DNA of 64,000 bases from Prorocentrum cordatum. Taxonomy: Eukaryota > Sar > Dinophyceae > Prorocentrales > Prorocentraceae. Position 1 is the stretch's first letter. Each line of letters begins with the position of its first letter. The stretch lies in the NCBI GenBank assembly GCA_963575745.1, contig CAUYUJ010000759.1, forward strand, positions 25,001 to 89,000, read 5' to 3'. Of the stretch, positions 7,594 through 55,915 are shown one piece after another. The notes beneath the pieces are model-generated. The model ran no database searches. It was not told the origin of the DNA and worked only from the letters and a program-made list of their open reading frames with translations. The position numbers and the translations under genes were made by a program.

Positions 7594-7638
7594 CTGAATG
7601 GCGGCCGTAAACCGTCAACCGACCTCGTAGAGCTCCTT
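7594..7638 (+). repeat. Degenerate superfamily head (missing second arm)
   Basis: CTGAATGGCGGCCGTAAACC, then GTCAAC, runs directly into GACCTCGTAGAGCTCCTT. The second hairpin arm (TTACCGCCGG) is deleted. This is the leftmost recognisable head. The flanking 7.1-8.2 kb is AT-rich and holds type-C-like fragments but no gene. Confidence 0.7.
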
Positions 7639-8059
7639 ACACACATAACAGTGCTCTCAATGCGGACAGTAAGCTCCCTGGAATATAAATTTGGAAACTG
7701 GAGAAGAAAATTGTTGGGGGGTTCCAATGGATGACCAGTTGCACAAAGGTTTGTGTAATACAGCAGCTAGAGACATAAACATTGCAGGCGAACGCAACAG
7801 GAACTACTCCAGTTGCACAGAGACATACTTCGCCTAAAGAATTGTCAAATGTCTAATATTTTTTAGAAAACCTCCAGTTTCTTCAAAAGAACTGCTAAAT
7901 GTTGAGGTCGATCCCTCGAAATCAATCGACAGAAATAGCTACCCCTGAGGTTTTCACCCGCAAACGCAGCGCGATCCAATTCTCAGTGAAATAATCTTGG
8001 ATGTCATACCGAATTCTCAAATTTCACCCAATCTCCTGAAAACCGCAAAACGATCAATT

Positions 8060-8160
8060 CATGTCAACTGAAAGTCGGTTGCTCTACGTTTTTTGATAAT
8101 AATACTGCAGCTACGGATCAACCAAAAAAGTATCGGCTGACGCAGCATAACCTACTGCAA
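8060..8160 (+). repeat. Decayed type-C body fragment
   Basis: GTCGGTTGCTCTACG, TGATAATAATACTGCAGCTA then CGGATCAAC correspond to the type-C body motif seen repeatedly at 17.6-20.5 kb. The copy is diverged and bounded by the next degenerate head at 8196. Confidence 0.6.
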
Positions 8161-8195
8161 ATGGGTGAAATACGTCACCTTAAACCAAATAGTCA

Positions 8196-8254
8196 CTGGA
8201 GCCAGCGGTAAGCCGGCAAGCAGAGTTACCACCGGGGGGATGCGTAGAGCTTCT
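8196..8254 (+). repeat. Degenerate superfamily head
   Basis: CTGGAGCCAGCGGTAAGCCG, GTTACCACCGGGGGGATG and CGTAGAGCTTCT preserve the arm-spacer-arm-CGTAGAGCT order with several substitutions. The 650 bases that follow (8255-8900) show diverged superfamily-like text and no gene. Confidence 0.65.
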
Positions 8255-8904
8255 GTCCGAACACAGAAACCTCTACATAATAGCGCTGATTCGAAACGTC
8301 GAAGCTGTAGACTGTTGCGTCCAAGGCTGCCGTTCCAGGTGCTGCAATCGAGAGCTTCGCAGCTACTCTAAATCTCGAGAGTTGGCAGAAGTGCGGCGCA
8401 ACGCAGCAGAGCGGTAGCAGAGCGAGATTAGTTTCTTCGAGCATAGCTCAAATAGAAAACTGGGCTTAAGTGTCTAGGAGTAACAAAGAAAAACTATTGA
8501 ATTTGCCTGCGTGCTGAAGCAAGCTGAGCCCTGAAATCTGTCAACATGCCAAGATTTAGGCGAGAGGTATTTCGACGCAGCGGAAGTCGCTGCAGAGTGG
8601 AACTAGTTTTCATCCATAGCCTCAGCATGCAAACAAGCTCAGCTCCCTGGAAGTCGAAGCGAGCAGCTATTAGTCGTCACAACAGAATCGTACCAGCAGA
8701 GATGTGAACGCGCCTTGAATCTCGAGTTTTTCGCAATCGCAAAAGTCGACAGCGAGCAAGATTGCAGTGTGAAACTAGTTCATTCGAATACAGCTCGAGT
8801 AGCAAACAAAGTTTAGCTCTCTCTAAACTGTCCACATATTTCGAGGCTGCTAAATCGTTTCGTGGTCCGGAAAATGCATTCCGACGGGCGACGGTTCCCC
8901 CGAA

Positions 8905-9520
8905 CTGGGAGCTGGCGGTAATACGTCAGCCTCGGCTACCGCCGGGAACTCGCAGAGCTCCCTTGCGACATACATGAATGGCATGCGGGCGCGGCAATCT
9001 CGCATTCCGCGCGCGCAAAGGTGCGGTTTCATGAAGAGGACGTGGAGGAGGACACGGAGCGAGGAGAAGAAGAAGGTGCAGGAGGCCGGGGAGGAGAAGG
9101 AAGAGGAGAAGAAGGAGCAGGAGAAGGAGAAGGAGCGGGAGGAGGAGGAAGAGAGGATGACGAGCAGGAGGAGGGAAAGCTGGAGGGGGGGAAAGGGGAC
9201 GACCATGATGGCGAGGAAGAAGAGGAGGAGGGGGAAGAGAAGAGAAGGAGGAGGAGGAGGAGAAAGAGGAAAACGAGCAGATGGAGGCGGAAGAGGAGGA
9301 GGAGGAGGAGGAGGAGAAAGAGGAGCAGGAGGAGGACGAGGAGAAGGAGGAGGAGTAGGAGGAGGGGGAGGAAAGGGGAGAAGAAGAGAAGAAGGAGAAG
9401 GGAGGAAGGAAGAAGAGCAGAGGAGCAGGGGAAGTGGGAGGAGGAGAAGAAGGCAAAGGAGGAGAAAGAGGAGGGGGAGAAAAACGAGAAGACGTCTCGA
9501 TACCGTAGGCGAATGGACCT
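8905..9520 (+). mobile_element. Head with purine-tract interior, copy 1
   Basis: A head (8905-8964) is followed by CAATCTCGCATTCCGCGC and then about 500 bases of (GGA/GAA)n purine tract to about 9490, then AGACGTCTCGAT and CGTAGGCGAATG. The same four-part order recurs at 11.16-11.66 kb, and its first three parts at 16.17 kb. The Glu/Arg/Gly-rich frames inside are microsatellite products. Confidence 0.75.
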
Positions 9521-9599
9521 GGTGACCATCTGTTTCGGAAAATGTTTTTCGGCTCCATGGCCCAACCTACAGCTCCAATAAAGCAGAGAAAACTTCGAT

Positions 9600-10590
9600 C
9601 ATCTTCTTAAAACACTAGCAGCACGAATAGTTGTTTGGTTCCAGCTCTGGAAGAAGACCGAGTTCGGGCATCTAGATACTTGAGACCCAGCAATCCTGAT
9701 GATGTCATATCGATTGCTGTGCCGAACAGCTCTGTCGCTCATCTGCAGCTCGAGTTAAGTCAAGAAAATAAGCAGCATCTCAAAACAAATGCGGAGTACG
9801 GATATGTTTTGGTTCCAACTCTGGTAGCAGACCAAGTTCGGGCATCTAGATAGGTCAGACTAGCGATCATTGTGATTTCCATGTCGATTTCTGTGCCGAA
9901 CAGCTCCGTAGCTCATCTGCAGCTCGCGTTGAGCTAAGAAAGTCATGATTGCCTCACCAAAAAAACGCGCACGATGCGTTTTGTTGGTTCCAACACTGGT
10001 AGCAGACCAAGTTCGGCCATCCAGATACTTGAGACTGGCGCTACTGATGATTCTCTTTCGATTGCTGTGCCGAACAGCTCTGTAGCTCATCTGCACCTCG
10101 AGCTAAGTTAAGAAAATCATAACCATCTCGAGAAAATGCAGGAGTACGAATAGCTTGTTGCTCGGTAATAGACCGAGTTCGGCCATCTGGATACTTCGAA
10201 CTAGTTATCCTGGTGATTGTCCTTCGGTTGCTGCGCCAAACAGCTCTGTAGCTTCTCTGTAGCTCGAGTTAAATTAAGAAAACCGGCAGTACCTGCCAAG
10301 GTGACACCTAACAGCCAATCCCGCCTGAGTGCTTTTTTACAGTAATATCTACCCGATCGACCTGATATTGAGATGACGAGCATGGCTGAGATCGGATATG
10401 GGGGGGGAAGATATTAGAGCTCGAACGAGTTGTTGAATTTCGAGACAATAATTTTAAACCGACCAAAATGATGCATAACTTCCGTCGAGATTTTTCGGGC
10501 AAACTAGCCCCCCAGCGCGCCAGAATTAATCTCTAGCTTCGCCGCTTCGCTCTTAGGGAAGCTCTACGAGTACATCAGCATCATATCAAA
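9600..10590 (+). repeat. Diverged ~175-bp satellite block with tail
   Basis: Monomers of about 166-175 bp recur, marked by AGACCGAGTTCGGGCATCTA at 9655 and its variants at 9829 and 10005 and near 10170. They carry CTGTGCCGAACAGCTCTGT and CAGCTCGAGTTAAGT. From about 10300 the block passes into the superfamily tail (ACCCGATCGACCTGA, CCGTCGAGATTTTTCGGGC) and ends GGAAGCTCTACGAGTAC near 10573. These are an older branch of the ~178-bp satellite seen after 22 kb. Confidence 0.8.
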
Positions 10591-16380: not shown

Positions 16381-16404
16381 TCTCTGAAAAAATCGAAACC
16401 AATT

Positions 16405-18122: not shown

Positions 18123-18451
18123 CTGGCGGTAAACCGTCAACCAGGTTACCGCCGGGGCCCTCGTAGAGCTCTTTTCTCGCACGGCGCTCCTCGGCACACA
18201 TAAAAGCTCGAAAAATCACGTTTTTATGTTTTTATCCAGAGACGGTTCCTTCAAGTGTTTTGATAATAATGCTGCACCTACGGACCTGAGAATTTGACTG
18301 GCAGACGCGACATAAGCCACTACAGGTGCGAAAAATCTGGTTTCTCAAAATCAATTGTCAAATATCTTTCAAATCTTAGGAAAACCGACCCAAAGCTATC
18401 ACATTGTCTCTTCTCGTCGGGTCGACCAACTAGCTCCACCCCGCGCTGGAA
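18123..18451 (+). mobile_element. Type-C element, tail truncated
   Basis: Head 18123-18174 (shortened start CTGGCGGTAAACC), then TCTCGCACGGCGCTCCTCGG, the body motif TTTTGATAATAATGCTGCAC and the tail to GCGCTGGAA, where the next head replaces the missing ATTCCTCTAGCT part. Confidence 0.85.
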
Positions 18452-18763
18452 CTTGGAACCAGCGGTAAACCGTCAACCAGGTTACCGCTGGGGCCCTTGT
18501 AGAGCTCTTTTCTCGCACGGCGCTCCTCGGTACAAACAAAGGAAGCGTCTGGAGCAAGACCTGAAAAACTAGAAAAATCACGTTTTCCTGTTTTTATCCA
18601 AAGACGGTTCCTTCAAGTGTTTTGATAGTAATACTGCACCTACGGACCTGAAAATTTGACTGGCAGACGCGACATAAGCCACTACAGATGCGAAAAATCT
18701 GGTTTCTCAGACTGAAGTGTCAAATATCTTTCAAATCTCAGGAAAACCGAGCCAAAGTTATCA
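18452..18763 (+). mobile_element. Type-C element, tail truncated
   Basis: Head 18452-18509 starting CTTGGAACCAGCGGTAAACC. The body is near-identical to the previous copy (GTGTTTTGATAGTAATACTG, CACCTACGGACC). It is truncated at AAAGTTATCA just before the next head. Confidence 0.85.
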
Positions 18764-19291
18764 CTGGCGCCGGCGGTGAAACGTCAACCTGGTCACCGCC
18801 GGGAACCTCGTAGAGCTCTTTGCACGCGTAAGAGTGCTTAGATTCAAAGCAGACAGCTTATTGGAGCATTTCTAGAAAAAAATAGAATTTTCATTTTTGG
18901 TTGTCAATTTCTTGTCGGTTGCTCCAAATTTTTCCGATAGTAAAACTGGCTCTAGAGAGCTGAGCTGCTCTGGGAACAAATTTTGCATTCCAATGCTCGG
19001 CGTAAAAATCTGCCTTCTCAAAATGAATGGTCAAATATCTTTCAAATATTAGCAAAACCGACCCAAAGTTGTCATATTGTCTCTTCTGGTCGGGTCGGCC
19101 AACTAGCTCCACCCCGCGCCAGAATTCCTCTAGCTCATCGATGACGAAGAGCTTTACGAGGTACATTGTCTCTTCTCGTCGGGTCGACCAACTAGCTCCA
19201 TCCCGCGCCGGAATTCCTCTAGCTCATCGATGCCGAAGAGCTCTACGAGGTATTCCTCTAGCTCATCGATGCCGAAGAGCTCTACGAGGTA
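18764..19291 (+). mobile_element. Type-C element with triplicated tail
   Basis: Head 18764-18820. The tail GAGCTCTACGAGGTA (first copy GAGCTTTACGAGGTA) occurs three times, ending near 19162, 19245 and 19293. The repeats have 83- and 48-base spacing and share TTCCTCTAGCTCATCGATG. Tail multiplication without a head is also seen inverted at 39.22-39.40 kb. Confidence 0.85.
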
Positions 19292-19932: not shown

Positions 19933-19990
<58 letters not shown>

Positions 19991-24364: not shown

Positions 24365-24714
24365 ACCCGAGTTCAGACCTCTGCATGCGACAGGCGCACG
24401 CGGCTGATGTCTCTGAATCGATTCCTGTGATTACCAGCCCTGCAGCCCCCCTACAGCCCGAGTCAAGTGCAGGAAACCGATAGCACCTCTCAGAATGACT
24501 CGAACAATACGAACAGCTTGGCGGACCTAGTTCGGGCAGCAGACAGAGTTCGGAGCTCGTGATTCGGAAGGCACATGCGCCCGATGTCTCCGAATCGATT
24601 CCACTGATTACGAGCCATACAGCCACCCAAAAGCCCGAGTGAAGTGCAGAGAACGGACAGCATCTCTCAAGATGACTCAAGCAATACGAATAGTTTCGCG
24701 ATTCTAGGTCTGAA
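24365..24714 (+). repeat. ~178-bp satellite monomers without head
   Basis: Two monomers (AGTTCAGACCTCTGCATGCG, then AGAGTTCGGAGCTCGTGATT) join the family-D fragment directly and stop at the 24715 head. Confidence 0.8.
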
Positions 24715-27700
24715 CTGGGCGCCGGCGGTAAACCGTCAACCTTTCTTACCGCCGGGGGACTCGTAGAGCTTCCTGAAAATACATGATGTGGATAAAAATC
24801 CAGAGAACGAATAGTTTTTCAGCCCAAGCGATTTCAGACCTCTCAAGATGACTCTAACAAAAGAACGAACAGTTTGGCAACCCAGCTCGAGTATCAAACT
24901 GAGTTCAGACCTCTGAATGCGATAGGCGGACGCGTCTGATGTCTGCGGAACGACTCCTGTGATTACCAGCCCTGCAGCCCCCTACAGCCCGAGTTAAGTG
25001 CAGAAAACCGACAGCACCTCTCAGGATGACTCGAATAATACAATAGTTGTGCAGACCTAGTTCGAGCAGCAGACCGAGTTCCGAGCTCTCGGTTCGACAG
25101 ACGGGCGCGCCTGATGTCTCCGAATCGATTTCTGTGACCAGCAGCTCTGTAGCCCTTCCCCGGCACGAGTTAAGTGCGGAAAACCGAGAGCACTTCTCAA
25201 GATGACTCGAACAATACGAATAGTTTCGCGAACCTAGCTCGGGCAGCAGCCCGAGTTCAGGGCTCTGGATTCAACAGACGAACGCGCCTGATGATTCCCA
25301 ATTGATTTCTATGACTATAAGCTCTGTAGCTGCCCTGTAGCTCGAGTTAAGTACAGAAAATCGAGAACGTCTGTCGAGATGACTCGAATAATACGAATAA
25401 GTTTGCGGAGCTAGCTCGGCTAGCAGACCGAGTTCAGACCTCTGGATTGAACAGGCGAACGCGCCTGATCATTCTGAATCGATTAGCTGTGCTTACCAGC
25501 TCTGTAGCTGTCCTGAAGCTCGAGTTATGTTCAGAAAACCATCATCGCGTGTCAAGATGACTCGAAACGGCCGATCCCGCCTGCCTGCTTTTTGGCAGTA
25601 AAAGGTACCCGATCGAGCTGAGATTAAGATGGCGAGCGGGAATAAGATCGAATATCATGGGAAAAATACTAGAGCTCTAACGAATGTTAAAATTTTAAGA
25701 ACAAAACTTTCAACCGACCAAAAGTCAGCAAAAGGTCCGTCGAGATTTTTCTTGCCAACTAGCTCTCCAGCGCCCCGGAATTACTCTTAAGCTTCCAGCA
25801 ATAACTTGCTAAGGGAAGCTCTACGAGTTACTTGGTCTGCTAGCCGAGCAAGGTCTGCCAACCTATTTGTACTATTTGAGGCATCTTCACAGATGCTTCC
25901 GGTTTTCTGTACTGGGCGCCGGCGGTAAACCGTCAACCTTTCTTACCGCCGGGGGACTCGTAGAGCTTCCTGAAAATAAATGATGTGGATAAAAATCCAG
26001 AGAACGAAAAGTTTTTCAGCCCAAGCGATTTCAGACCTCTCAAGATGACTCTAACAAAAGAACGAACAGTTTGGCAACCCAGCTCGAGTATCAAACCGAG
26101 TTCAGACCTCTGAATGCGATAGGCGGACGCGTCTGATGTCTGCGGAACGACTCCTGTGATTACCAGCCCTGCAGCCCCCTACAGCCCGAGTTAAGTGCAG
26201 AAAACCGACAGCACCTCTCAGGATGACTCGAATAATACAATAGTTGTGCAGACCTAGTTCGAGCAGCAGACCGAGTTCCAAGCTCTCGGTTCGACAGACG
26301 GGCGCGTCTGATGTCTCCGAATCGATTTCTGTGACCAGCAGCTCTGTAGCCCTTCCCCGGCACGAGTTAAGTGCAGAAAAACCGAGAGCACTTCTCAAGA
26401 TGACTCGAACAATACGAATAGTTTCGCGAACCTAGCTCGGGCAGCAGCCCGAGTTCAGGGCTCTGGATTCAACAGACGAACGCGCCTGATGATTCCCAAC
26501 TGATTTCTATGACTATAAGCTCTGTAGCTGCCCTGTAGCTCGAGTTAAGTACAGAAAATCGAGAACGTCTGTCGAGATGACTCGAATAATACGAATAAGT
26601 TTGCGGAGCTAGCTCGGCTAGCAGACCGAGTTCAGACCTCTGGATTCAACAGGCGCGCGCCTGATCATTCTGAACCGATTGGCTGTGCTCACCAGCTTTG
26701 TAGCTGTCCTGCAGCTCGAGTTATGTTCAGAAAACCATCATCGCGTGTCAAGATGACTCGAAACGGCCGATCCCGCCTGCCTGCTTTTTGGCAGTAAAAG
26801 GTACACGATCGAGCTGAGATTGAGATGGCGAGCGGGAATAAGATCGAATATCATGGGAAAAAATACTAGAGCTCTAACGAATGTTCAAATTTTAAAAACA
26901 AAATTTTCAACCGACCAAAAGTCAGCAAAAGGTCCGTCGAGATTTTTCTTGCCAACTAGCTCTCCAGCGCCCCGGAATTACTCTTAAGCTTCCAGCAATA
27001 ACTTGCTAAGGGAAGCTCTACGAGTTACTTGGTCTGCTAGCCGAGCAAGGTCTGCCAACCTATTTGTACTATTTGAGGCATCTTCACAGATGCTTCCGGT
27101 TTTCTGTACTGGGCGCCGGCGGTAAACCGTCAACCTTTCTTACCGCCGGGGGACTCGTAGAGCTTCCTGAAAATAAATGATGTGGATAAAAATCCAGAGA
27201 ACGAAAAGTTTTTCAGCCCAAGCGATTTCAGACCTCTCAAGATGACTCTAACAAAAGAACGAACAGTTTGGCAACCCAGCTCGAGTATCAAACCGAGTTC
27301 AGACCTCTGAATGCGATAGGCGGACGCGTCTGATGTCTGCGGAACGACTCCTGTGATTACCAGCCCTGCAGCCCCCTACAGCCCGAGTTAAGTGCAGAAA
27401 ACCGACAGCACCTCTCAGGATGACTCGAATAATACAATAGTTGTGCAGACCTAGTTCGAGCAGCAGACCGAGTTCCAAGCTCTCGGTTCGACAGACGGGC
27501 GCGTCTGATGTCTCCGAATCGATTTCTGTGACCAGCAGCTCTGTAGCCCTTCCCCGGCACGAGTTAAGTGCAGAAAAACCGAGAGCACTTCTCAAGATGA
27601 CTCGAACAATACGAATAGCTTCGCGAACCTAGCTCGGGCAGCAGCCCGAGTTCAGGGCTCTGGATTCAACAGACGAACGCGCCTGATGATTCCCAATTGA

Positions 27701-28177
27701 TTTCTATGACTATAAGCTCTGTAGCTGCCCTGTAGCTCGAGTTAAGTACAGAAAATCGAGAACGTCTGTCGAGATGACTCGAATAATACGAAAAAGTTTG
27801 CGGAGCTAGCTCGGCTAGCAGACCGAGTTCAGACCTCTGGATTCAACAGGCGCGCGCCTGATCATTCTGAACCGATTGGCTGTGCTTACCAGCTCTGTAG
27901 CTGTCCTGCAGCTCGAGTTATGTTCAGAAAACCATCATCGCGTGTCAAGATGACTCGAAACGGCCGATCCCGCCTGCCTGCTTTTTGGCAGTAAAAGGTA
28001 CACGATCGAGCTGAGATTGAGATGGCGAGCGGGAATAAGATCGAATATCATGGGAAAAAAAACTAGAGCTCTAACGAATATTTAAACTTTAAGAACAAAA
28101 TTTTCAAACGACCAAAAGTCAGCAAAAGGTCCGTCGAGATTTGTCTTGCCAACTAGCTCTCCAGCGCCCCGGAATTA
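24715..28177 (+). repeat. 1197-bp higher-order tandem repeat of satellite-type units
   Basis: Three head-to-tail copies start at 24715, 25912 and 27109, exactly 1197 bp apart. The third is cut at 28177 by a type-C head. Each copy has the variant head (spacer CTTTCTTACC), a leader with ATCCAGAGAACGAA, about five monomers in fixed order, a tail, and an added stretch ending AGATGCTTCCGGTTTTCTGT. Copies differ by only scattered substitutions and 1-2-base indels over a kilobase, so the duplication is recent. Confidence 0.92.
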
Positions 28178-31170: not shown

Positions 31171-31614
31171 TGCGAGTTATATTCGCAAAAGCATCCAAAA
31201 GTTATCATATTGTCCGGCCGGGTCGGCAAACTAGCTCCACCCCGCGCCAGAATTCCTCTAGCTCATCGGCGTCGAAGAGCTCCACGAGGTAAACCGACCC
31301 CAAGTCGTCACCTTGTCTCTGACGGTCGGGTCGGCCAACTAGCTCCACCCTGCGCCCGAATTTCTCTAAGCTCATCTTGCCGACGAGCTCTACGAAGTAC
31401 TCTTACACTTTCAGCAATAACCTGCTAAAGGAAGCTCTACGAGTTACTTGACTCGAGCTACAGGGCGGCAACAGAGCTGATAAGCACTGAATCGAATTAA
31501 AAATAATGTTTGACTGTTCGTTCCCGGATAGCTCCTTGGAGAGCTGAGGGTTTGAGAGAAGAAGCCGGCGATCGTCCAAAACCCGGAAAGCGAAGCCAAG
31601 CGCGGAACGCCGCA
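31171..31614 (+). repeat. Stack of tails and family D termini
   Basis: Two type-C tails (ending near 31290 and 31400) and one satellite-type tail (GGAAGCTCTACGAGTTAC near 31431), then unrelated AT-rich bases. Then come an inverted family-D right end (TTCCCGGATAGCTCCTTGGA, near 31524) and a family-D left end (GTCCAAAACCCGGAAAGC) cut by the 31615 head. Confidence 0.75.
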
Positions 31615-43645: not shown

Positions 43646-45604
43646 TTCGCGGACCTAGCTCGAGCAGCAGACCGAGTTCAGATCTCTGGATGCAACAGAC
43701 AAACACGCCTGATGATTCTGAATCAGTTTCTGTGAACATCAGCTCTATAGCTATCCTAGAGTTCGAATTATGTACAGAAAGCCGTCACCGCGCGTCAAGA
43801 TGACCCGAAACCGCCGATCCCGCCTGTGTGCTTTTGGGGCGATCGACCTGAGATACGGCGAGCGGGAATAAAATCAAATACCATATCAAGTTCAGGCCAC
43901 TCGATGCAACAGATAAACGCTTCTGATGCGTCTGGATGAGTTTCTGTGCGTAGCAGCTCTGTAGCTCTCCTGACGTGCGAAAACCAACAGCACCTCTCAA
44001 GATGACTCGAACGATACGCATAGCTTCGCGGACCTAGCTCAAATAGAAGACCGAGTTCAAACCTCTGGATATAACTGCCTGTCTATGATGATTACGAGCC
44101 ATATAGCCCACCTGAAGCCCAAGTTAAGTACAGAAGACCGACAGCACCTAGTAGCTCTCCTATACCTCGAGCTAAGGCAGAAAAACGAGACAACGTCTCT
44201 GAACAATAGCTCGAACAATACAAATAGTTTGGCGGATCTACTTCGAATATCAGACCGAGTTCACCCCTCTGAATGCGACAGGCAGACGCGTCTGATGTCT
44301 ACGAATCAGTTTCCGTGACTACCGGCCCTGTAGCCCCCTCTACAGCCCGAGTTAAGTGCAGAAAACCGATAGCACCTCTCAAGATGACTCGAACGATACG
44401 AATATTTTTGCGAACCTAGCTCACAGATCATTCTGCAATGGTTCCTTCGCATATCAGCTCTGTATCTCCCCCAGAGCGAGTTGACTCAGACAGTCCCTGT
44501 CGAGCTGACTCGATACTAACAGTTTGCCAGACCTAGTTCGAGTACCAGACCGAGTTCACCTCTACGTGCGAGAGGCAGACGTGCCTGAGTCTACCAATTA
44601 GTTTCTCTCATTAACAGCCATATACTCCACTTGAAGCCCGAGTTAAGTACAGAAAACCGACAGCATCTGTCAAGATGACTCGAACAATATGAATAGTTAT
44701 GCGCACCTCCTCGCTCGAGCAGCAGACTGAGTTCAGACCTCTCGATGCAAGAGGCAAATACGACTGATAATTCCACGTCGATGCCCGTAAGTACTAGCTC
44801 TGGCGCTGTCCTATGGCCCGAATATCCAGAGAACGACTAGGTGTTTAGCCGAAGTGATTGCAGACCTCTCCAGACTACCCAGAAAAATGAACAATTTGGC
44901 AACCCAGCTCGAGTATCAAACCGAGTTGAGACCTCTGACTGCGACAGGCGGACGCGTCTCATGTCTGCGGATCGACTCCATTAATTACCAGCCCTGCAGC
45001 CACCCTACAGCGCGAGTGAAGTGCAGAAAAGCGAGAGCAGCTCTCAGGATAACTCAAATAATACAACAGTTTTGCAGATCTAGTTTGAGTATACAGACCG
45101 ACAGACGGACGCGCATGATGTTCCCGAATCCATTTCTGCAACCAGCAGCACTGTAGCGCTCCCCAGCACAAGTTCAGCGAAGGAAGCCGACAGCACTTGT
45201 CAAGATGATTCTAACAATACGAATAGTTTCGCAAACCTAGCTCGGGCAGCAGGCCGAGTTCAGAGCTCTGCATCGGACATACGAACGTGCCTGGTAATTT
45301 TCAACTGATTTTGTGATTATGAGCTCTGTAACTGCCCTGCAGCTCGAGGTAAGTACAGAAAACCGAGAGCATCTATCACGATGAGTCGAATAATACGAAT
45401 AGGTTTGTGACCATAGCTCAGCTAGCAGACCGAGTTCAGACCTCTGGATTCAACAGGCGAACGCGTCTGATCATTCTGACTGCATTAGCTGTGCTGACCA
45501 GCTCTGTAGTTGTCCTGAAGCTCGAGATATCTTGAGAAAACAAACAGCACGTATCAAGATGACTCGAAACGGTCGTTCCCGCCTGCCTGCTTTTTGGCCT
45601 TCAA
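43646..45604 (+). repeat. Diverged satellite monomers without head
   Basis: About ten monomers, more diverged than neighbours and several shortened. A truncated tail (GATCCCGCCTGTGTGC, GCGAGCGGGAATAAAATC) lies near 43810-43890. The block ends within the tail at CTGCTTTTTGGCCTTCAA, where the 45605 head begins. It is probably an older layer. Confidence 0.75.
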
Positions 45605-47014
45605 CTGGGCGCCGGCGGTAAACCGTCAACCTTTCTTACCGCCGGGGGACTCGTAGAGCTTCCTGAAAGTATATAGTGTGGGAAAAAATCCAGAGAACGA
45701 CTAGTTTTCAGCCTAATTTCAGACCTCTCAAGATGACTCTAACAAAGAAACAAACAGTTTCGCAACCAAAATCGAGTATCAGGCGGACGTGTCTGATGTC
45801 TGCGAATCGACTCATGTGATTACCAGCCCTGCAGGCCCCTCCACAGCCCGAGTTGAGTGCAGAAAACCGACAGCACCTCTCAGGATGCCTCGAATAATAC
45901 AATAGTTTCGCGGACCTGATTCGAGCAGCAGACCAAGTTCTGAGCTCTCGAATCGACCAACGAACGCGCATGATGTGTACAAATCGATATCTATGACCCG
46001 CAGCACAGTAGCCCTCCCCAGCACGAGTTGAGTGCAGAAAATTCAGAACGCTTTTCACGATGATTCGGACAATACGAATAATTTCGCGAACCTAGCTCGG
46101 GCTGCAGGCCGAGTTCAGAGCTCTCGATACAACAGACAAACACCCGATAATTCCCAATCGATTTCTGCAGCTGCCCTACAGCTGCCCTACAGCTCAAGTT
46201 GAGCTGCCCTACAGCTCGAGTTAAGTACAGAAAACCGAGAGCGTTTATAAAGCTGACTCGAATAATACGAATAGATGTGCGGAGCTAGCTCGGCTAGCAG
46301 ACCGAGTTCAGGCCTCTGTAGTCGAGAGACGAACACGCCTGATGATTCTGAATGCGATGAATGTGCTTACCAGCTCTGTAGCTGCCCTGCAGCTCGAATT
46401 GAATACAAAATACCCACCATGCGTATCAAGTTGACTCGAATAATACGAATCGGTTTGCGGACCTAGCTCGGCTAGCAGACCGAGTTCAGACCTATGGATT
46501 CAACAAGCGAACGCGCCTGATGATTCTGAGTGCGATAGGTGTGTTTACCAGCACTGTAGCTGCCCTACAGCTCGAGATAAGTACAAAATACCGACAACGT
46601 GTATCAAGTTGACTCCAATAATACGAATAGGTTTGCGGACCTAGCTCGGCTAGCAGACCGAGTTCAGACCTATGGATTGAACAGGCGAACGCGCCTGATG
46701 ATTCTGAGTGCGATAGCTGTGCTCACCAGCTCTGTAGCTGCCCTACAGCTCGAGTTAAGTAGAAAATACCGACAGCGTGTGTCAAGATGACTCGAAACGG
46801 CCGTTCCCGCCGGGACGCTTTTTGGCCTTCAAAGTTACCCGATCGAGCTGAGATCAAGATGGTGAGCGGGAATAAGATCGAATATCATGGGAAAAGATAC
46901 TAGAGCTCTAACGAATGGTCAAATTTTGAGAAGAAAATTTTCAACCGACCAAAAGTCAGCAAAAGGTCCGTCGAGATTTTTCTTGCCAACTAGCTCTCCA
47001 GCGCCCCGGAATTA
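45605..47014 (+). mobile_element. Satellite-type unit, tail truncated
   Basis: Head 45605-45664 (CTTTCTTACC spacer variant), leader GTATATAGTGTGGGAAAAAA then TCCAGAGAACGACTAG, about six monomers, tail to GCGCCCCGGAATTA, then the next head. Confidence 0.85.
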
Positions 47015-49000
47015 CTGGGCGCCGGCGGTAAACAGTCAACCTTGGTTACCGCCGGGGGACTCGTGGAGCTTCCTAACTCGACTTAAGTTGAGAAAACAGA
47101 CAGCACTTACCAAAAATCTCACTTATAGTGAATAATTTTTGACCTCTAAATGCGACAGACGGACGCGTCTGATGTCTGCGAATCGACTCCTGTCATTACC
47201 AGCCCTGCAGCCACCCTACAGCCCGAATTAAGTGCAGAAACCCGACAGCACCTCTCAGAATGACTCGAACAATAGGAATAGTTTCGCGGACCTAGTTCGG
47301 GCAGCAGACATGCGGACGCGCCTGATGTCTTCAAATCGATCCAGTGATTACCAGCCATGCAGCCCCCCTACAGCCCGAGTTAAGTCCAGATAACCGACAT
47401 CATCTCGCAAGCGACTCGAACGATACGAATAGTTTCGCGATTCTACATCAGGCAGCAGGCCGAGTTCAGAGCTCTGGAGTCGACAAACAAACGTAACTGC
47501 TGATTCTGAATTGGTGTCTCTGAATATCAGCTCTGTAGCTGTCCTACAGCTCGAGTTAAGTGCAGAAAACCGAGCGTTTCTGTCAAAATGACTCGAATAA
47601 TACGAACAGGTTTGTGACCCTAGCTCGGCTAGCAGACCGAGTTCAGACCTCTGGATTCAACCGGCGAACGCGCCTGATCAGTCTGCATACATTAGCTGTG
47701 CTTATCAGCTCTGTAGCCGTCCTGAAGCTCGAGTTATGTTCAAAAAACCGACAGCGTGTGTCAAGATGACTCAAAACGGCAAATCCGGTCACAGTGCTTT
47801 TCGATAGTAATATTCACCCGATCGAGCTGAGATCAAGATGGCGAGCGGGAATAAGATCGAATATCACGGGAAAAAATACTAGAGCTCTAACGAATGGTCA
47901 AATTTTGAGAACAAAATTTTCAACCGAGCAAAAGTTGTCAAAAGTTCAGTCGAGATTTTTCGAGCCAACTAGCTGTGGGGCGCGCCGGAATTACTCTTAG
48001 CTTCCAGCAATAACTTGCTCAGGGAAGCTCTACGAGTCACTCTTAAGCTTCCAGCAATAACTTGCTAAGGGAAGCTCTACGAGTTATGAGCTCTACGACT
48101 GGGCGCCGGCGGTAAACCGTCAACCTTGGTTACCGCCGGGGGACTCGTAGAGCTTCCTAACTCGACTTAAGTTGAGAAAACAGACAGCACTTACCAAAAA
48201 TCTCACTTATAGTGAATATTTTTTGACCTCTAAATGCGACAGACGGACGCGTCTGATGTCTGCGAATCGACTCCTGTCATTACCAGCCCTGCAGCCACCC
48301 TACAGCCCGAATTAAGTGCAGAAACCCGACAGCACCTCTCAGAATGACTCGAACAATAGGAATAGTTTCGCGGACCTAGTTCGGGCAGCAGACATGCGGA
48401 CGCGCCTGATGTCTTCAAATCGATCCAGTGATTACGAGCCATGCAGCCCCCCTACAGCCCGAGTTAAGTCCAGATAACCGACATCATCTCGCAAGCGACT
48501 CGAACGATACGAATAGTTTCGCGATTCTACATCAGGCAGCAGGCCGAGTTCAGAGCTCTGGAGTCGACAAACAAACGTAACTGCTGATTCTGAACTGGTG
48601 TCTCTGAATATCAGCTCTGTAGCTGTTCTACAGCTCGAGTTAAGTGCAGAAAACCGAGCGTTTCTGTCAAAATGACTCGAATAATACGAACAGGTTTGTG
48701 ACCCGAGCTCGGCTAGCAGACCGAGTTCAGACCTCTGGATTCAACCGGCGAACGCGCCTGATCAGTCTGCATACATTAGCTGTGCTTATCAGCTCTGTAG
48801 CCGTCCTGAAGCTCGAGTTATGTTCAAAAAACCGTCAACGCAGATCAAGATGACTCAAAACGGCAAATCCGGTCACAGTGCTTTTCGATAGTAATATTCA
48901 CCCGATCGAGCTGAGATCGAGATGGCGAGCGGGAATAAGATCGAATATCACGGGAAAAAATACTAGAGCTCTAACGAATGGTGAAATTTTGAGAACAAAA
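47015..49000 (+). repeat. 1084-bp tandem duplication of a satellite-type unit
   Basis: Heads at 47015 and 48099 are 1084 bp apart and the copies are nearly identical. Both leaders read ACTCGACTTAAGTTGAGAAA then ACAGACAGCACTTACC, and their internal substitutions match. The first copy carries a doubled tail ending near 48087. The second is cut at GAGAACAAAA by the 49001 head. Confidence 0.92.
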
Positions 49001-50391
49001 CTGGGCGCCGGCGGTAAACCGTCAACCTTTCTTACCGCCGGGGGACTCGTAGAGCTTCCTGAAAATACAAGAAGTGTGGGAAAAAACTCCAAAGAACGAC
49101 TAGTTTTTCAGCCCAAGCGATTTCAGATCTCTCAAGATAACGCTAATAAAAACCAACCGGTTTCGCAACCCAGTTCGAGTATCAAACCGAGTTCAGACCT
49201 CTGAATGCGACAGGCGGCCGCGTCTGATGTCTGCGAATCCAGTCATGTGATTCCCAGCGCTGCAGCCCCCCTACAGCCCGAGTTAAGTGCAGAAAACCGA
49301 CAGTATCGACTCGAATAATAGAATAGTTTTGCGGACCTAGTTCGAGCAGCAGACCGAGTTCCGAGCTCTGGAATCGACCGACAAACGCGCCTGATGTGTT
49401 CAAATCGATATGTGTGACCCGCAGCACTGTAGCCGGCCCCAAACACGAGTTAAGTGCAGAAAACCGAGAGCACTTCTCAAGATGACTCGCACAATACGAA
49501 TAGTTTCGCGAACCTAGCTCGGGCAGCAGACCGAGTTCAGAGCTCTTGGTTCAGTAGACGAACGCGGCTGATGATTTCCCATCGATGTCTGTGACAATGA
49601 GCCCTGTAGCTGCCCTACAGCTCGAGTTAAGTACAGAAAATCGAGAGCGTCTGTCAAGATGACTAGAATAATACGAATAGGTTTCCGGAGCTAGCTCGGC
49701 TAGCAGACCGAGTTCAGACCTATGGATTCAACAGACGAATGCGCCTGATGATTCTGAGGACGATAGATGTGCTTACCAGCACTGTGGCTGCCCTAAAGCT
49801 CGAGTTGAGTAGAGAATACCGACAAGACGTATGAAGTTCACTCGAATAATAGGAATAGGTTTGCGGACCTAGCTCGGCTAGCAGACCGAGTTGAGACCTC
49901 TGGATTCAACAGGCGAACGCGCCTGATGATTCTGAGTGCAATAGCTGTGCTTACCAGCACTGTAGCTGCCCTACAGCTCGAGTTAAGTATAAAATAAAAT
50001 ACCGACAACGCGTATCAAGATGACTCGAAACAGCCGTTCCCGCCTGCCTGCTTTTTGGCCTTCAAAGTTACCCGATCGAGCTGAGATCAAGATGGCGAGC
50101 GGGAATAAGATCGAATATCATAAGAAAAAATACTAGAGCTCAAACGAATTGTCAAATTTCGAGAACAAAATTTTCCACCGACCACAAGTCACCAAAAGGT
50201 CCGTCGAGATTTTTGTTGCCAACTAGCTCTCCAGCTCCCCGGAATTACTCTTAAGCTTCCAGCAATAACTTGCTAAGGGAAGCTCTACGAGTTATTTTCA
50301 ACCGAGCAAAAGTTGTCAAAAGTTCAGTCGAGATTTTTCGAGCCAACTAGCTGTGGGGCGCGCCGGAATTACTCTTAGCTTCCAGCAATAA
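49001..50391 (+). mobile_element. Satellite-type unit, complete, with extra partial tail
   Basis: Head 49001-49060, leader, about six monomers, and a complete tail ending GGAAGCTCTACGAGTTAT near 50295. A second tail fragment (TTTTCAACCGAGCAAAAGTT onward) runs to GCAATAA, where the next head begins. Confidence 0.85.
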
Positions 50392-51465
50392 CTGGGCGCC
50401 GGCGGTAAACCGTCAACCTTTGTTACCGCCGGGGGACTCGTAGAGCTTCCTGACAACATATACTGTCGAAAAAAAATTGCAGAGAACGAATAGTTTTTCA
50501 GCCCGAGTCGAGTATCAGACTCAGTGCAGACCTCTGAATGCAACAGACGCACGCGTCTGATGTTTTTCCATCGATTCCTGTGATTACCCGCTGCAGCCTC
50601 TCTACAGCCCGAATGAAGTGCAGAACGCCGACAGTAGCTCTCAAGATGACTAGAAGAATACGAACAGTTTCGTGATTCTGGATCGCGCAACAGACCGAGT
50701 TCAGAGCTCTCGATTCAAAAGGCAAGCGCGCCTGATGATTCCGAGTGCGGTAGCTGTGCTTACCAGCACTGTAGCTGCCCTACAGCTCGAGTTAAGTGGA
50801 AAATATCGACAACGCGCATCAAGTTGACTCGAATAATACGAATAGGTTTGCGGACCTAGCTCGGCTAGCAGACCGAGTTCAGACCTATGGATTCAACGGG
50901 CGAACGCGTCTGATGATTCTGAGTGCGATGGGAGTGCTTACCAACACTGGAGCTGTCCTACAGCTCGAGTTAAGTAGAAATTACCGACAACGCGTATCAA
51001 GTTGACTCGAATAATACGAATAGGTTTGCGGACCTAGCTCGGCTAGCAGACCGAGTTCAGACCTCTGGGTTGAACAGGCGAACGCGCCTGATCATTCTGC
51101 ATGGATTAGCTGTGTTCGCCAGCTCTGTAGCTGCCCTAGAGCTCGAGTTATGTTCAGAAAACCGTCAGCGCATATCAAGATGACTCAAAACGGCCGATCC
51201 CGCCACTGTGCTTTTCGATAGTAATATTCACCCGATCGAGCTGAGATCAAGATGGAGAGCGGGAATAAGATCGAATATCACGGGAAAAAATACTAGAGCT
51301 CTAACGAATTGTCAAATTTTGAGAACCAAATTTTCAACCGAGCAAAAGTCACCAAAAGTTCCGTCGAGATTTTTCTTGCCGACTAGCTCTCCAGCGCGCC
51401 GGAATTACTCTTAGCTTCCAGCTATAACTAGCTAAGGGAAGCTCTACGAGTTACTTGCTCAGGGA
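50392..51465 (+). mobile_element. Satellite-type unit, complete
   Basis: Head 50392-50451, leader AACATATACTGTCGAAAAAA, about four monomers, complete tail ending GGAAGCTCTACGAGTTAC near 51451, plus a few bases of a second tail (TTGCTCAGGGAAGCTC). Confidence 0.85.
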
Positions 51466-51584
51466 AGCTCTACGAGTCAAGTTCCCGGCGGTAACCAGGT
51501 TGACGGTTCACCGCCGGCGCCAGTACTGGGCGCCGGCGGTAAACCGTCAACCTTTCTTACCGCCGGGGGACTCGTAGAGCTTCC
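51466..51584. repeat. Two heads back to back (inverted and direct)
   Basis: An inverted head (CCCGGCGGTAACCAGGTTGA to CACCGCCGGCGCCAG, ending 51523) abuts a direct head (CTGGGCGCCGGCGGTAAACC, from 51526) with only TA between CAG and CTG. This is the only such arrangement seen in the window and forms a ~120-bp imperfect palindrome. Confidence 0.9.
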
Positions 51585-53325
51585 TGACAGTATATAGAGT
51601 GGGAAATAATCCAGAGAACGACTAGTTTCCATGACTCTAACAAAAAAACAAACAGTTTCGCAATCCAGTTCGTATCAGACCGAGTTCAGACCTCGCAATG
51701 CGACAGGCGGACGCGTCTGATGTCTGCGAATCGACTCATGTGATTACCAGCCCTGCAGCCCCCGACAGCCCGAGTTAAGTGCAGAAACCGAGAGCATCTC
51801 TCAGAATGACTCGAATAATACAATTGTTTCGCGAATCTGTTTCGAGCAGCAAATCAAGTTCTGAGCTTTCGAATCGTCCAACGAACGCGTCTGATGTGTG
51901 CAAATCGATTTCTATGACCCGCAGCACTGTAGCCCTCCCCCAGCACGAGTTGAGTGCAGAAAATTGAGAGCACGTTGCACGATGATTCGGAGAATACGAA
52001 TAGTTTCGCGAAGCTAGCTCGGGCAGCAGGCCGAGTTCAGAGCTCTCGATACAACAGACAAACGCGCCCGATGATTCCCAATCGATTTATGTGACTATAG
52101 GCTCTGTAACTGCCCTAAAGCTCGAGTTAAGTACAGAAAACCGAGAGCGTTTGTCAAGATGACTCGAATAATACGAATAGGTTTGCGGACCTAGCCCAGC
52201 TAGCAGACCGAGTTTAGACCTATGGATTTAACAGGCGAACGCGCCTGACGATTCTGAGTGCGATAGGTGTGCTTACCAGCACTGTAGCTGCCCTAGACCT
52301 CGAGTTAAGCAGAAAATACCGACAACGCGTATCAAGTTGACTCGAATAATACGAATAGGTTTGCGGACCTAGCTCGGCTAGCAGACCGAGTTCAGACCTC
52401 TGGATTCAACAGGCGAACGCGCCTGATGATTCTGAGTGCGATAGGTGTGCTTACCAGCACTGTAGCTGCCCTAGACCTCGAGTTAAGCAGAAAATACCGA
52501 CAACGCGTATCAAGTTGACTCGAATAATACGAATAGGTTTGCGGACCTAGCTCGGCTAGCAGACCGAGTTCAGACCTCTGGATTCAACAGGCGAACGCGC
52601 CTGATGATTCTGAGTGCGATAGGTGTGCTTACCAGCACTGTAGCTGCCCTACAGCTCGAGTTAAGTAGAAAATACCGACAACGCGTATCAAGTTGACTCG
52701 AATAATACGAATAGATTTGCGGACCTAGCTCGGGTAGCAGACCGAGTTCAGACCTCTGGATTGAACAGGCGAACGCGCCTGATGATTCTGAGTGCGATAG
52801 CTGTGCTTACAGGCACTGTAGCTGCCCTACAGCTCGAGTTAAGTTGAAAATACCGACAGCCCGTAGCAAGATGACTCGAAACGGCCGTTCCCGCCACCGT
52901 GCTTTTTGGCCTTCAAAGTTACCCGATCGAGCTGAGATCAAGATGGCGAGCGGGAATAAGATCGAATATCACGGGAAAAAATACTAGAGCTCTAACGAAT
53001 GTCAAATTTCGAGAACAAAATTTTCAACCGAGCAAAAGTCACCAAAAGTTCCGTCGAGATTTTTCTTGCCAACTAGCTCTCCAGCGCGCCGGAATTACTC
53101 TTAGCTTCCAGCTATAACTAGCTAAGGGAAGCTCTACGAGTTAAGTTACCCGATCGAGCTGAGATCAAGATGGCGAGCGGGAATAAGATCGAATATCATA
53201 GGAAAAAATACTAGAGCTCTAACGAATGGTCAAATTTTGAGAACAAAATTTTCAACCGAGCAAAAGTCACCAAAAGGTCCGTCGAGATTTTTCTTGCCAA
53301 CTAGCTCTCCAGCGCCCCGGAATTA
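51526..53325 (+). mobile_element. Satellite-type unit with near-identical monomers and extra tail
   Basis: Direct head to 51584, leader, about seven monomers, and a complete tail ending near 53143. A further tail module (ACCCGATCGAGCTGAGATCA onward) runs to the next head at 53326. Consecutive monomer pivots at 52363, 52541 and 52719 give a 178-bp period with almost no differences. Confidence 0.88.
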
Positions 53326-54719
53326 CTGGGCGCCGGCGGTAAACCGTCAACCTTTGTCACCGCCGGGGGACTCGTAGAGCTTCCTGACAACATATACTGT
53401 CGGAAAAAATGCAGAGAACGAATAGTTTTGCAGCCCAACTCGAGTATCAGACCGAGTTCAGACCTCTGAATGCGACAGACGGACGCGTCTGATGACTCCG
53501 AATCGATTCCTGTGATTACCCGCACTGCAGCCTCCCTACAGCCCGAATTAAGTGTCAAGATGACTGGAAGAATACGAACAGTTTCGTGATTCTGGATCGC
53601 GCAACAGACCGAGTTCAGATCTGTATTCAACGGGCGAACGCGGCTGATGATTCTGAGTGCGGTAGGTGTGCTTACCAGCACTGTAGCTGCCCTAAAGCTC
53701 GAGTTAAGTAGAAAATACGAAAACCCGTCAAGTTGACTCGAATAATATGAATAGGTTTGCGGACCTAGCTCGGCTAGCAGACCGAGTTTAGACCTATGGA
53801 TTCAACAAGCGAACGCATCTGATCATTCTGAGTGCGATAGAAGTGCTTACCAGCACTCTAGCTGCCATACAGCTCGAATGAAGTAGTGAAAACCGACAAC
53901 ACGTATCAAGTTGACTCGAATAATGCAAACAGGTTTGCGGACCTAGCTCGGCTGACAGACCGAGTTCAGACCTCTGGGTTCAACAGGCGAGCGCCCCTGA
54001 TCATTCTGCATGCATTAGCTGTGCTTACCAGCTCTGTAGCTGCCCTAGAGCTCGAGTCATGTTCAGAAAACCGTCAGCGCATATCAAGATGACTCGAAAC
54101 GGCCGATCCCGCCACTGTGCTTTTTGGCCTTCAAAGTTACCCGATCGAGCTGAGATCAAGATGGCGAGCGGGAATAAGATCGAATATCACGGGGAAATAT
54201 ACTAGAGCTCTAACGAATTGTGACATTTTGAGGACAAAATTTTCAACCGAGCAAAAGTCGTCACTTGTAAGCGTCCAAAACCCGGATAGCGAAGCCAAGC
54301 GCGGAACGCCGCACAGGGACCTCTGCCAGGCCGCCTGAAATGATGCGCGGGATGCTGGAAACCTCGCAGGAGACGCTTGTAGGGGGACCGTTTACGATGC
54401 GTGCGGTCCTGCAAAGCGCGCAAGGAAAATCTACCTAGGTGCCTGGAGGAACTGCCGAAGCTCTTTCGAAGCTCTGCCGAAGCGCTTCGCGCACCCTGGA
54501 GCCACGCGTATTGGGAAACGCCAGGAAGCCACGCTCCCGGACCCGCTGCAAGTTCCGACAACCTGCTGCGGGGATCGTGGACCGGCGGAGATGGGCGTGT
54601 CCTCCTCACCACCCACAGCCGGCTTCTTCTCTGAAACCCTCAGCTCTCCAAGGAGCTATCCGGGAAAAAGTTCCGTCGAGATTTTTCTTGCCAACTAGCT
54701 CTCCAGCGCGCCGGAATTA
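53326..54719 (+). mobile_element. Satellite-type unit interrupted by family D
   Basis: Head 53326-53385, leader, about four monomers and tail. The tail is split at CAAAAGTCGTCA by a family-D element (54264-54665), resumes at AAAAGTTCCGTCGAG and ends GCGCCGGAATTA, where a type-C head begins. Confidence 0.88.
54264..54665 (+). mobile_element. Complete family D insertion (~400 bp)
   Basis: Starts CTTGTAAGCGTCC, AAAACCCGGATAGC and ends AAGGAGCTATCCGGGA, giving a 10-bp terminal inverted repeat CCCGGATAGC. The middle holds GAAGCTCTTTCGAAGCTCTG and GAAGCGCTTCGCGCACC stem-like words. The flanks rejoin to a known satellite tail, proving insertion. No clear target duplication beyond an ambiguous A. 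No coding capacity, so it is non-autonomous. Confidence 0.85.
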
Positions 54720-55110
54720 CTGGCGCCGGCGGTGAACCGTCAACCTGGTCACCGCCGGGAACCTCGTAGAGCTCCTCTCACTCGTATGAGTGTAGATTCG
54801 ACATAGAGTGAAAAAATAGAGATTTTTCGAAAATCATGAAATTCGATTTTTTCGATGTTCATATTCGCTCAGATTCTGGAAGTCAACTCATGCAAAAATG
54901 CATCAAGAGTGCTGAGCTGCTGTCAGATAGCAGTTCATACCCCAGTGCTCGGCGTAAAAATCTGCTTTCTCAAAATGAATGGTAAAATTTCTTTCAAATT
55001 TTCGCAAAACCACCCAAAAGTTGTCACATTGTCCGCCTCGGCCGGCTGGGCCAACTAGCTCCAGCCCGCGCCGGAATCCTTCTAGCTCATTGATGTCGAA
55101 GGACTCTACG
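54720..55110 (+). mobile_element. Type-C-like element, complete
   Basis: Head 54720-54776, a diverged interior with AAATCTGCTTTCTCAAAATG, and a full tail (GGGCCAACTAGCTCCAGCCC, GCGCCGGAATCCTTCTAGCT, GGACTCTACGAGGTATT). Confidence 0.8.
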
Positions 55111-55857
55111 AGGTATTACTCTTAGCTTCCAGGTAACAAGCCAAGGAAAGCTCTACGAGTTATGTCCAAAACCCGGACTTGCTATGTCCAAAACCCGGAT
55201 AGCATTGGGCGCTCGAAACGTCCCAGCTGGTCGCAGCGGGGATCGTCGAGCGCAGGGCGTGGGAGTGCGGCGATGCACGCGCACCCGCTGGCTTCTCCTC
55301 TAACAACCCTCTGCAGCCCAACAAAAGGGCTATCCGGGAATAACAAGCTCAGGGAAGCTTTACGAGTTATGTCCAAAACCCGGATAGTTAGGCGCTCGAA
55401 ACGTCGTCGAAGACGCCTGGAACGGCGCCGTGGACGATGCCTGGGGCGCTGCGCGAGGACCGCGCAAGCGCTGCGTAGGAGCTTGCGAGCGCCGTGACGG
55501 TGACTGCCTGGGAGCTTCCAAAGCTTTTCTGAAGCTCTGCCGAAGCGCTTCGCGCACCCTGGAGCCACGCGTATTGGGACACGCTAGGAAGCCACGCTCC
55601 CGGACACGCTGCGAATTCCGGCAGGGCGCTGCGAGAATCGTGAACCGGCGGATGTGGGCGTGTGCTCCTCACCACCCACAGCCGGCTTCTTATCTGAAAC
55701 CCTCAGCTCTCCAAGGAGCTATCCGGGAATTGGTAGCGTCCACTTGTAAGCGTCCAAAACCCGGATAGCGAAGCCAGGCGCGGAGCGCGAAGCGTTCCAA
55801 AACGCCGCACGGGGACCTCTGTCGTTCCGCTTGAAACGATGCGCGGGACGCTGGAAA
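55111..55857 (+). mobile_element. Cluster of three family D copies and tail fragments
   Basis: Left ends GTCCAAAACCCGGATAGC occur near 55183 and 55754, and GTCCAAAACCCGGATAGTTA near 55372. A further orphan start lies near 55165. Right ends GGGCTATCCGGGAA and GGAGCTATCCGGGAA lie near 55340 and 55730. Short satellite tails (GCTCTACGAGTTATG) separate them. The last copy is cut after GGGACGCTGGAAA by a head. Confidence 0.8.
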
Positions 55858-55915
55858 CTGGGCGCCGGCGGTAAACCGTCAACCTGGTTACCGCCGGGGA
55901 CCTCGTAGAGCTCCT
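55858..55915 (+). repeat. Rightmost superfamily head
   Basis: Canonical head CTGGGCGCCGGCGGTAAACC, GTCAACCTGGTTACCGCCGG, then CCTCGTAGAGCTCCT. It is followed by unrelated sequence leading into the CA-rich domain, so the superfamily domain ends here. Confidence 0.9.

Follow-up and report, generated by a model that had tools for sequence, protein, structure and literature searches.

The window analysed here, a stretch of 64,000 nucleotides from a contig of the dinoflagellate Prorocentrum cordatum, carries a series of repeated elements sharing a conserved end of about 60 bp, termed the “head” in a first-pass annotation that listed 39 copies of it. These copies are real: a head profile matches all 39 listed starts at E ≤ 6.3e-5 and scores at least 25 bits at 37. 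The test is partly circular because the 16 strict window heads on which the profile was trained are among the 39 scored, but the profile has no match at E ≤ 1 in ten copies of the 84.7-kb region simulated with a first-order Markov model. The two weakest are the degenerate head at 7594 (21.7 bits) and the head at 20517 (19.1 bits), of which the first half alone is present; a strict head pattern has 17 matches. The listed starts do mark heads, but the exact boundary has to be moved, for most copies by one base, to an earlier start at ACTGG. As annotated, the inner repeat of the heads comes in two forms, A (ACTCGTAGAGCTTCC) and B (CCTCGTAGAGCTCTT), and the tails match in class. The tails also close with the reverse complement of the head end, but they are longer than the 15 bp given for them, since their last ~50 bp can fold into a hairpin of their own.

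Most copies run canonically along the window's minus strand, as do all elements, heads and tails given below with both start and end coordinates, so that the “head” is in fact the canonical 3′ end, consisting of the 3′ ATIR, which is the copy of the inverted repeat at the 5′ end, followed by a second hairpin. Read canonically, the elements run from AACTCG to CCCAGT. At the 5′ end, a host T is followed by A-ACTCGTAGAGCTTCC, the 5′ ATIR, which pairs with GGAAGCT-AA-GAGT to give the 5′ hairpin, whereas the 3′ end consists, in order, of GGAAGCTCTACGAGT (the 3′ ATIR), CCCC, a stem-loop GGCGGTAA..TTTACCGCC, GGCGCCCAGT and then host DNA. In classes A and B alike, 1 nt separates the 5′ ATIR from its terminus and ~45 nt separate the 3′ ATIR from the 3′ end. 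Typical examples are the A head at 24714..24773, with its stem-loop CCGGCGGTAA..TTACCGCCGG and terminal ACTGG on the plus strand, the A tail at 53083..53142, with the 5′ hairpin ACTC..AGCTTCC / GGAAGCT..GAGT, and the B tail at 19192..19251 (CCTC..AGCTC / GAGCT..GAGG). The 5′ hairpin forms in five of five A tails, with energies of -19.8 to -23.3 kcal/mol (RNA energies, 52 nt), and in one of three B tails, a competing minimum-energy fold being found in the other two. The stem-loop between the 3′ ATIR and the 3′ end not only folds but covaries: across 47 heads, including that at 24714, 94.2% of 364 cells are paired, and both sides have changed in 33 cells, compared with a maximum of 3 in six slid controls. 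Counted by stem pairs, those with a double change number three, which is not above shuffles (439 of 500 reach it).

The interior lies between the 5′ and 3′ ATIRs and contains ~178-bp monomers in A elements. The interiors had been described as unrelated and interchangeable; instead, they fall into families. All nine A elements compared, two of which are units of one triplication, align with each other over at least 90% of the interior, B elements mostly differ from them in interior, and bodies with a purine tract form a third kind. At 8904..10572, a purine microsatellite comes after an A-like head and gives way to monomer-like DNA and then to an A tail, which ends at 10571 and probably belongs to this head.

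Insertion sites can be read by comparing filled with empty copies of the same sequence. The complete A element of 1294 bp at 49000..50293, built of ~178-bp monomers, is flanked by ACAAA|ATTTT and has 23 empty-site matches, the best at 47876-47955. Three further complete A elements sit inside other elements. One of 1062 bp (50391..51452; CAATA|ACTTGC, empty at 47973-48039) is inserted within the 5′-hairpin loop of another element, one of 1025 bp (47014..48038; GGAATT|ACTC) lies in another tail, with both flanks identical to the empty site at 26940-27019, and one of 1223 bp (32627..33849; CCGGA|ATTACT, empty at 53054-53133) lies in the tail of the element starting at 31614. The latter belongs to a single insertion of two head-to-tail units at 31614..35335 (CCGC|ACAGGG, empty at 54273-54352), in which unit 31614-33898, holding the element just described, and unit 33899-35335 abut exactly at GAGTT|ACTGGG. 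An outer A insertion spans 7.5 kb (45604..53142; TTCA|AAGTT, 16 empty-site matches) and contains six further heads, at 47014, 48098, 49000, 50391, 51524 (reverse) and 51525, while a B element span of 801 bp (18451..19251; GGA|ATTCC, 18 empty-site matches) has a second B head at 18763.

In 12 of 12 selected filled/empty pairs the insertion is exact, N|A on the plus strand, and leaves no target duplication beyond one ambiguous base. On the canonical strand the target therefore reads T|N, and a strict TT is not required. The base at -1 of the left flanks (n = 68) is A in 38 cases, T in 14, G in 9 and C in 7, and in the empty sites the next base is the only fixed one. A family of cut-and-paste (DDE) transposons or MITEs, their inverted repeats offset by the 45-bp head by chance, would account for 15-bp inverted repeats in two matched classes, and a one-base target duplication (A) could not be distinguished from none. 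The repeats, however, are not at both termini, the 12 selected pairs hold no longer duplication, and tail-to-head units abut exactly; the combination of terminal inverted repeats and a target duplication of fixed length is thus absent, save for a possible single base, and this origin is very improbable.

The elements extend far beyond the window. The exact 20-mer head core has 28,581 copies in the 4.13-Gb dinoflagellate genome, where the reversed pattern has none, and the copies form dense nests that mostly run one way (84 of 94 neighbouring pairs less than 10 kb apart, among the first 100 places), with exceptions such as a nest (C23) of 24 minus and 8 plus heads. Exact tail-to-head junctions number 989, a count that includes segmental duplicates, and at one site in the elements' own tails there are 1,553 same-direction insertions against 18 in the opposite direction. 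On one contig of ~85 kb, self-insertion predominates. Such one-way nests, the tandem triplication of an A element with its flank at 24714..28177 (period 1197 bp; heads 24714, 25911 and 27108, tails 25828 and 27025) and near-identical loci such as the segmental duplicates L062 and L063 are what would be expected of a satellite-like repeat spreading solely by unequal crossing-over and segmental duplication, with the heads as passengers of a larger repeat. As sole explanation this is refuted because empty sites exist, and filled and empty copies match exactly at several different sites; a 3.56-Mb contig with a lone copy amid GAC-rich DNA and metagenome contigs with relatives whose stems covary also speak against it, and it is the least probable of the readings weighed here. 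Duplication of the satellite type remains as a contributor to array growth. The empty sites and the genome-wide copies, the lone one included, bear out the original view of transposable elements with common termini, and a single fixed parent repeat devoid of empty sites was not observed.

Of four genome-contig matches to the head, one (L002) is a true relative, although its contig is assigned to a bacterial bin. The other three have no stem and are due to chance, as is the single match in a phage-like contig (L005). Viral contigs gave no match to the head with three patterns, plasmids none to one 71-base query, and Rfam none at gathering scores.

Transposons of the IS200/IS605 type, which move as single strands by a Y1 enzyme, have subterminal hairpins at both ends, a short fixed target adjoining the element and an orientation set by replication direction. 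Hairpins at both ends, the lack of a longer target duplication and the strong direction bias are all in keeping with such a system. The left end of these transposons, however, adjoins a fixed tetra- or pentanucleotide, while the target here is one base only, and the two ends are linked by asymmetric inverted repeats, which in the published descriptions drawn on below are the trait of Helitron2. A transposon of this type is therefore highly unlikely.

The best explanation, with a probability of roughly 0.87, is that the elements are rolling-circle transposons of the Helitron2/Helentron type, non-autonomous and HINE-like, residing in the nuclear genome of a dinoflagellate. Points that weigh against it are the failure to find an autonomous element with these termini, the differing 5′ ends of two resident autonomous families, a one-base target that is less strict than TT or TTTT|T, the competing folds of two B tails, the number of stem pairs with a double change, the exceptions to one-way nesting and the segmental duplicates among the junctions. 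A canonical Helitron (Helitron1) would have 5′-TC, 3′-CTRR, insertion at A|T and a hairpin at the 3′ end only; against this stand the ends AACTCG...CCCAGT, hairpins at both ends and the target T|N. The first-pass annotation knew of no described family with exactly this head, but the termini, once reverse-complemented, follow the layout published for Helitron2/Helentron elements. In the account of Helitron2 by Bao and Jurka (2013, PMC3627910), as far as it is drawn on here, the 5′ ATIR lies 0-2 bp from the 5′ end as part of a 5′ hairpin, a subterminal 3′ ATIR directly precedes the 3′ stem-loop, and Helitron-1N1_CRe has no target duplication, all of which the present elements share. They differ from that account in a target of a single T rather than TTTT|T/C, in a distance of ~45 bp rather than 20-30 bp from the 3′ ATIR to the end and in their mostly one-way self-insertion nests. 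The sections considered on Helentrons and HINE/DINE-1 (PMC4067079) describe palindromic subTIRs, the 3′ one 38-60 bp from the 3′ end, a 3′ stem-loop, a preference for T targets, internal tandem repeats or microsatellites in some copies, and tandem arrays in bat and silkworm. Here too subTIRs, 3′ stem-loop, internal repeats, microsatellites, tandem arrays and T targets are found, but in a dinoflagellate host, without a strict TT target and with one-way insertion at a defined site of the elements' own 5′ region. FoHeli of Fusarium oxysporum, in the parts of PMC5148889 considered, has ATIRs, terminal hairpins at both ends (FoHeli1/2), self-insertion and one adjacent pair, with pre-insertion sites reconstructed in the same way as here; these traits recur in the present elements, except that self-insertion is occasional in FoHeli and dominant over the ~85-kb contig. 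Within the open-licence PMC library searched, no paper matches three strings of the termini, none contains both “Prorocentrum” and “Helitron”, and none of the titles listed describes such elements.

For these Helitron2-type elements, a mechanism can be proposed in which the Rep-helicase of a resident autonomous Helitron would nick after the 3′ stem-loop, peel off one strand and join it to a target T, with Ts in or beside the 5′-end hairpin of resident copies as favoured targets; tail-to-head arrays would result from read-through or repeated boundary insertion. More tentatively, and with the odds leaning against it, this may be a self-targeting Helitron2 lineage in which the strand-exposed 5′ hairpin is the preferred landing site, leading to one-way satellite-like domains of many tens of kb. 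With the hairpin exposed in only one of the two strands, as it might be in one template of a replication fork, nearly all insertions would take the same direction. In that case the orientation of the elements would reflect the direction of replication, and the nests would form a compartment of the chromosome that transposons have built and that contains few expressed genes.

Dinoflagellates have very large genomes with poor annotation. In one such genome, a visible share is accounted for by a single Helitron2-type group, with at least 28,581 exact head cores, and the head profile can be used for annotating it. The direction bias at the tail site, 1,553 against 18, offers a testable lead on target choice by rolling-circle transposons, suggesting guidance by strand-specific hairpins or by replication.

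In the search for an autonomous partner, proposed in the first-pass annotation, Helitron Rep proved to be present in the genome, with at least 151 matches to Helitron_like_N against none in 14 control genomes, but a partner with these termini was not found. No head occurs in 30 Rep loci of ~3.5 kb or in 10 upstream pieces, and the Helitron domain is absent from the 90 ORFs examined of 130 candidates, in which BCCIP (1.5e-4), Sec62 (0.009) and MCM_lid (0.0091) match one ORF each. Two resident autonomous Helitron families, with two copies each that are 99.8% and 99.3% alike over the upstream stretch compared, the second family beginning with a hairpin, have 5′ ends that differ from those of the elements. 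In the 1099-aa family the 5′ boundary is approximate because it falls within a TA repeat, and the 3′ end lies beyond the 3 kb examined, since both copies are still alike to the end of it. For an RT ORF (residues 560-1060), one homologue was found.

The elements headed by the hairpin unit of about 60 bp show, on structure, the Helitron2 features that were tested. Rolling-circle transposition by a Rep-helicase of Helitron2 type agrees with their anatomy, with their target and with their arrays, a reading to which we assign a probability of 0.87 and in which the enzyme involved, circle formation and the cause of one-way insertion are the parts that we infer. The first-pass annotation had counted 39 heads in the window, and a profile built from 16 strict heads recovers all 39 starts (37 of them at 25 bits or more), whereas ten sequences simulated from the region with a Markov model contain no head by the same profile. 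The contig comprises 109,743 bases and extends past the window (25,001-89,000); over the 84.7 kb from window start to contig end, 51 heads on the plus strand and 3 on the minus strand reach 25 bits. Two forms of the 15-bp inner repeat, A and B, are confirmed, and a matching tail goes with each.

When the elements are read on the canonical (minus) strand, their 5' end is formed by the tail, where ACTCGTAGAGCTTCC starts one base in and pairs with a downstream GGAAGCT..GAGT. This hairpin forms in all five folded A tails, at -19.8 to -23.3 kcal/mol (RNA energies), and in one of three folded B tails; in the remaining two another fold competes. The 3' end is formed by the head, which consists of the second repeat copy followed by the CCGGCGGTAA/TTACCGCCGG stem-loop. 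Relatives of the head are found in three metagenome contigs, where many of these relatives have another stem (CGAGCGGT..CCGCTCG) and an inverted repeat of their own. In an alignment of 47 heads (28 window heads and, out of 24 core matches from these contigs, 19), the stem is paired in 94.2% of 364 cells; both sides have changed in 33 cells, whereas none of six slid controls exceeds 3, and the covariation score is attained by none of 500 shuffles. Speaking against covariation, three pairs show a double change, which is not above shuffles (439/500 reach it), because 30 of the 33 cells fall in two pairs, mostly separating the two sources. The three contigs are C80 (DUZG01000080.1), C84 and C99 of one assembly, C80 coming from a bin that is catalogued as a Nitrospinota bacterium. 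Since relatives of these eukaryotic transposons occur on contigs of the bin, contamination of the bin by eukaryotic DNA is probable.

The boundaries were defined by empty sites, for which the flanks of head/tail pairs were joined and the unbroken sequence sought elsewhere in the region. Spanning matches were obtained for 27 pairs, of which 12 with ends of one class and well-matching flanks were kept, 11 at 0.90 identity or more on both sides and 25911-31445 at 0.84/0.94 with 30 matches. Of the 15 left out, eight are tail-to-head neighbours, for which the outcome is trivial, one repeats a duplicated flank, and six have flanks that match poorly, ends of mixed classes or a head start that was set wrongly. 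Insertion is exact in all 12, with an element that reads ACTGG (or ACTTGG)...GAG(T/G) followed by one more base; for 47014-48038 the empty site is identical to both 40-bp flanks. In 12 of 12 the junction is followed by an A, and a one-base duplication is possible because the element itself also starts with A. A lone copy of 1,595 bp lies in GAC-rich sequence at 1,718,976-1,720,570 of contig C1 (3,562,531 bases), flanked by ..GACGACG on the left and ACGGGG.. on the right; a 3-bp duplication (ACG) is inseparable from chance there, since the site is itself a GAC-rich repeat.

The elements insert into one another. Similarity to A or B tails is seen in 28 of 68 distinct left flanks of heads, drawn from the region and from eight loci of 3 kb; at random plus-strand positions the figure is 157 of 4,000. 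Landing points recur at GCCA^ACTAGC, at CCGGA^ATT, at GGAATT^ACTC, within the hairpin loop at GCAATA^ACTTGC, and at the very end. At GGAATT^ACT, 740 exact same-direction insertions exist genome-wide (control 0), and the exact opposite-direction form occurs nowhere in the genome. When 0-4 bases of play are allowed, the counts are 1,553 (reversed control 1) and 18 (control 0), with 16 of the 18 at AAT^AACTCG, which agrees with the T rule as well. The two patterns use element ends of differing abundance (26 vs 13 in the region, about two-fold), and the direction ratio is therefore corrected to roughly 40 to 1. The genome has 989 exact tail-to-head junctions (control 0), and among 100 matches listed some are 1.05-1.3 kb apart, about one element (C34, C869, C870, C1347). 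Segmental duplication adds to these insertion and junction counts, which are thus not independent events. Two heads also stand head to head at 51463-51585 (minus copy 51524, plus copy 51525), the exact palindromic junction being found at one place in the genome. Helitrons that insert into one another, lie side by side or form tandem arrays are already known from earlier work (PMC5148889; PMC4067079). In the excerpts and listings of the Helitron literature examined, no strict preference for one direction is reported at a fixed position of the element's own 5' end.

The assembly has 21,875 contigs and 4,128,499,153 bases. Exact copies of the 20-mer CCGGCGGTAAACCGTCAACC total 13,995 on the plus and 14,586 on the minus strand (reversed control 0), and heads must outnumber this exact count, as the 84.7-kb region holds 31 exact 20-mers vs 54 heads. 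An average spacing of 144 kb would follow from 28,581 copies, whereas the median gap among the first 100 matches listed is 1.4 kb, with the same orientation in 84 of 94 neighbouring pairs less than 10 kb apart. These 100 fall on C1 (one), C6, C19, C20, C23 and C27, and one-way heads among the matches listed make up 17/18 on C6, 36/38 on C19, 7/7 on C20 and only 24/32 on C23. A 21-mer that we take to be the dinoflagellate spliced leader has 14,218 exact copies (reversed pattern 0), and its first 100 places share only C1 with the contigs of the first 100 heads. Raw contig occurrences among the first 100 matches listed of each hint at separate compartments for the two. Most of the window lies below the G+C content of 59.7% given for the CCMP1329 assembly in an excerpt of its publication (PMC10666404); locus L016 is close to it at 60.2%.

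Interchangeable interiors had also been proposed. In the interior alignments the interiors form a few families and are not freely swapped, and the elements are therefore better described as a small number of families that have related ends. All nine A interiors compared, including two units of the triplication, are mutually alignable over at least 90% and contain monomers of about 178 bp. B18763 and B79294 have one interior in common, other than that of A, with which B23454 aligns in part; the interior of B83555 is about half A-like, and this element is probably nested or recombinant. The purine-tract stretches 8904 and 11163 align mutually, 8904 partly with A too, and 40906 with none (the ends of 11163 and 40906 were placed by hand). 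For HINE/DINE elements, PMC4067079 reports tandem repeats in the interior as well as microsatellites.

A search for an autonomous partner with these termini had been suggested; none was pinpointed among the contig ORFs scanned or the two resident families compared, though one is likely to be present in the genome. No Helitron domain was found in 90 scanned of the contig's 130 candidate ORFs, where introns could hide one. Genome-wide, 150 of 1,615 candidate stretches were scored for Helitron_like_N and gave at least 151 matches, with none in 14 control genomes. In two resident Helitron families, two copies each were compared; their upstream stretches are 99.8% identical along 1,873 bp in the first family and 99.3% identical along 1,356 bp in the second, and this near-identity marks them as recent. 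A 5' hairpin opens the second family (99.3%); the 5' ends of both differ from those of the hairpin-headed elements. Very many Helitron Rep matches lie on many contigs of the assembly, with open frames of up to 3,573 aa and, in some families, copies that are nearly identical. Recently active autonomous Helitrons appear to be abundant in this dinoflagellate.

The window also holds an open frame of 1486 aa on the minus strand (58564-63021) in which a reverse transcriptase domain (RVT_1) is matched at 8.9e-06, short of the curated cut-off; the frame is flanked by long CA repeats and has one homologue, 47% identical. A second tandem repeat with units of about 75-90 bp (GGGGCC..GGTGGAGCTCCC) occupies 4671-5946, 11959-12160 and 36483-37508 and is seemingly without relation to the hairpin elements.
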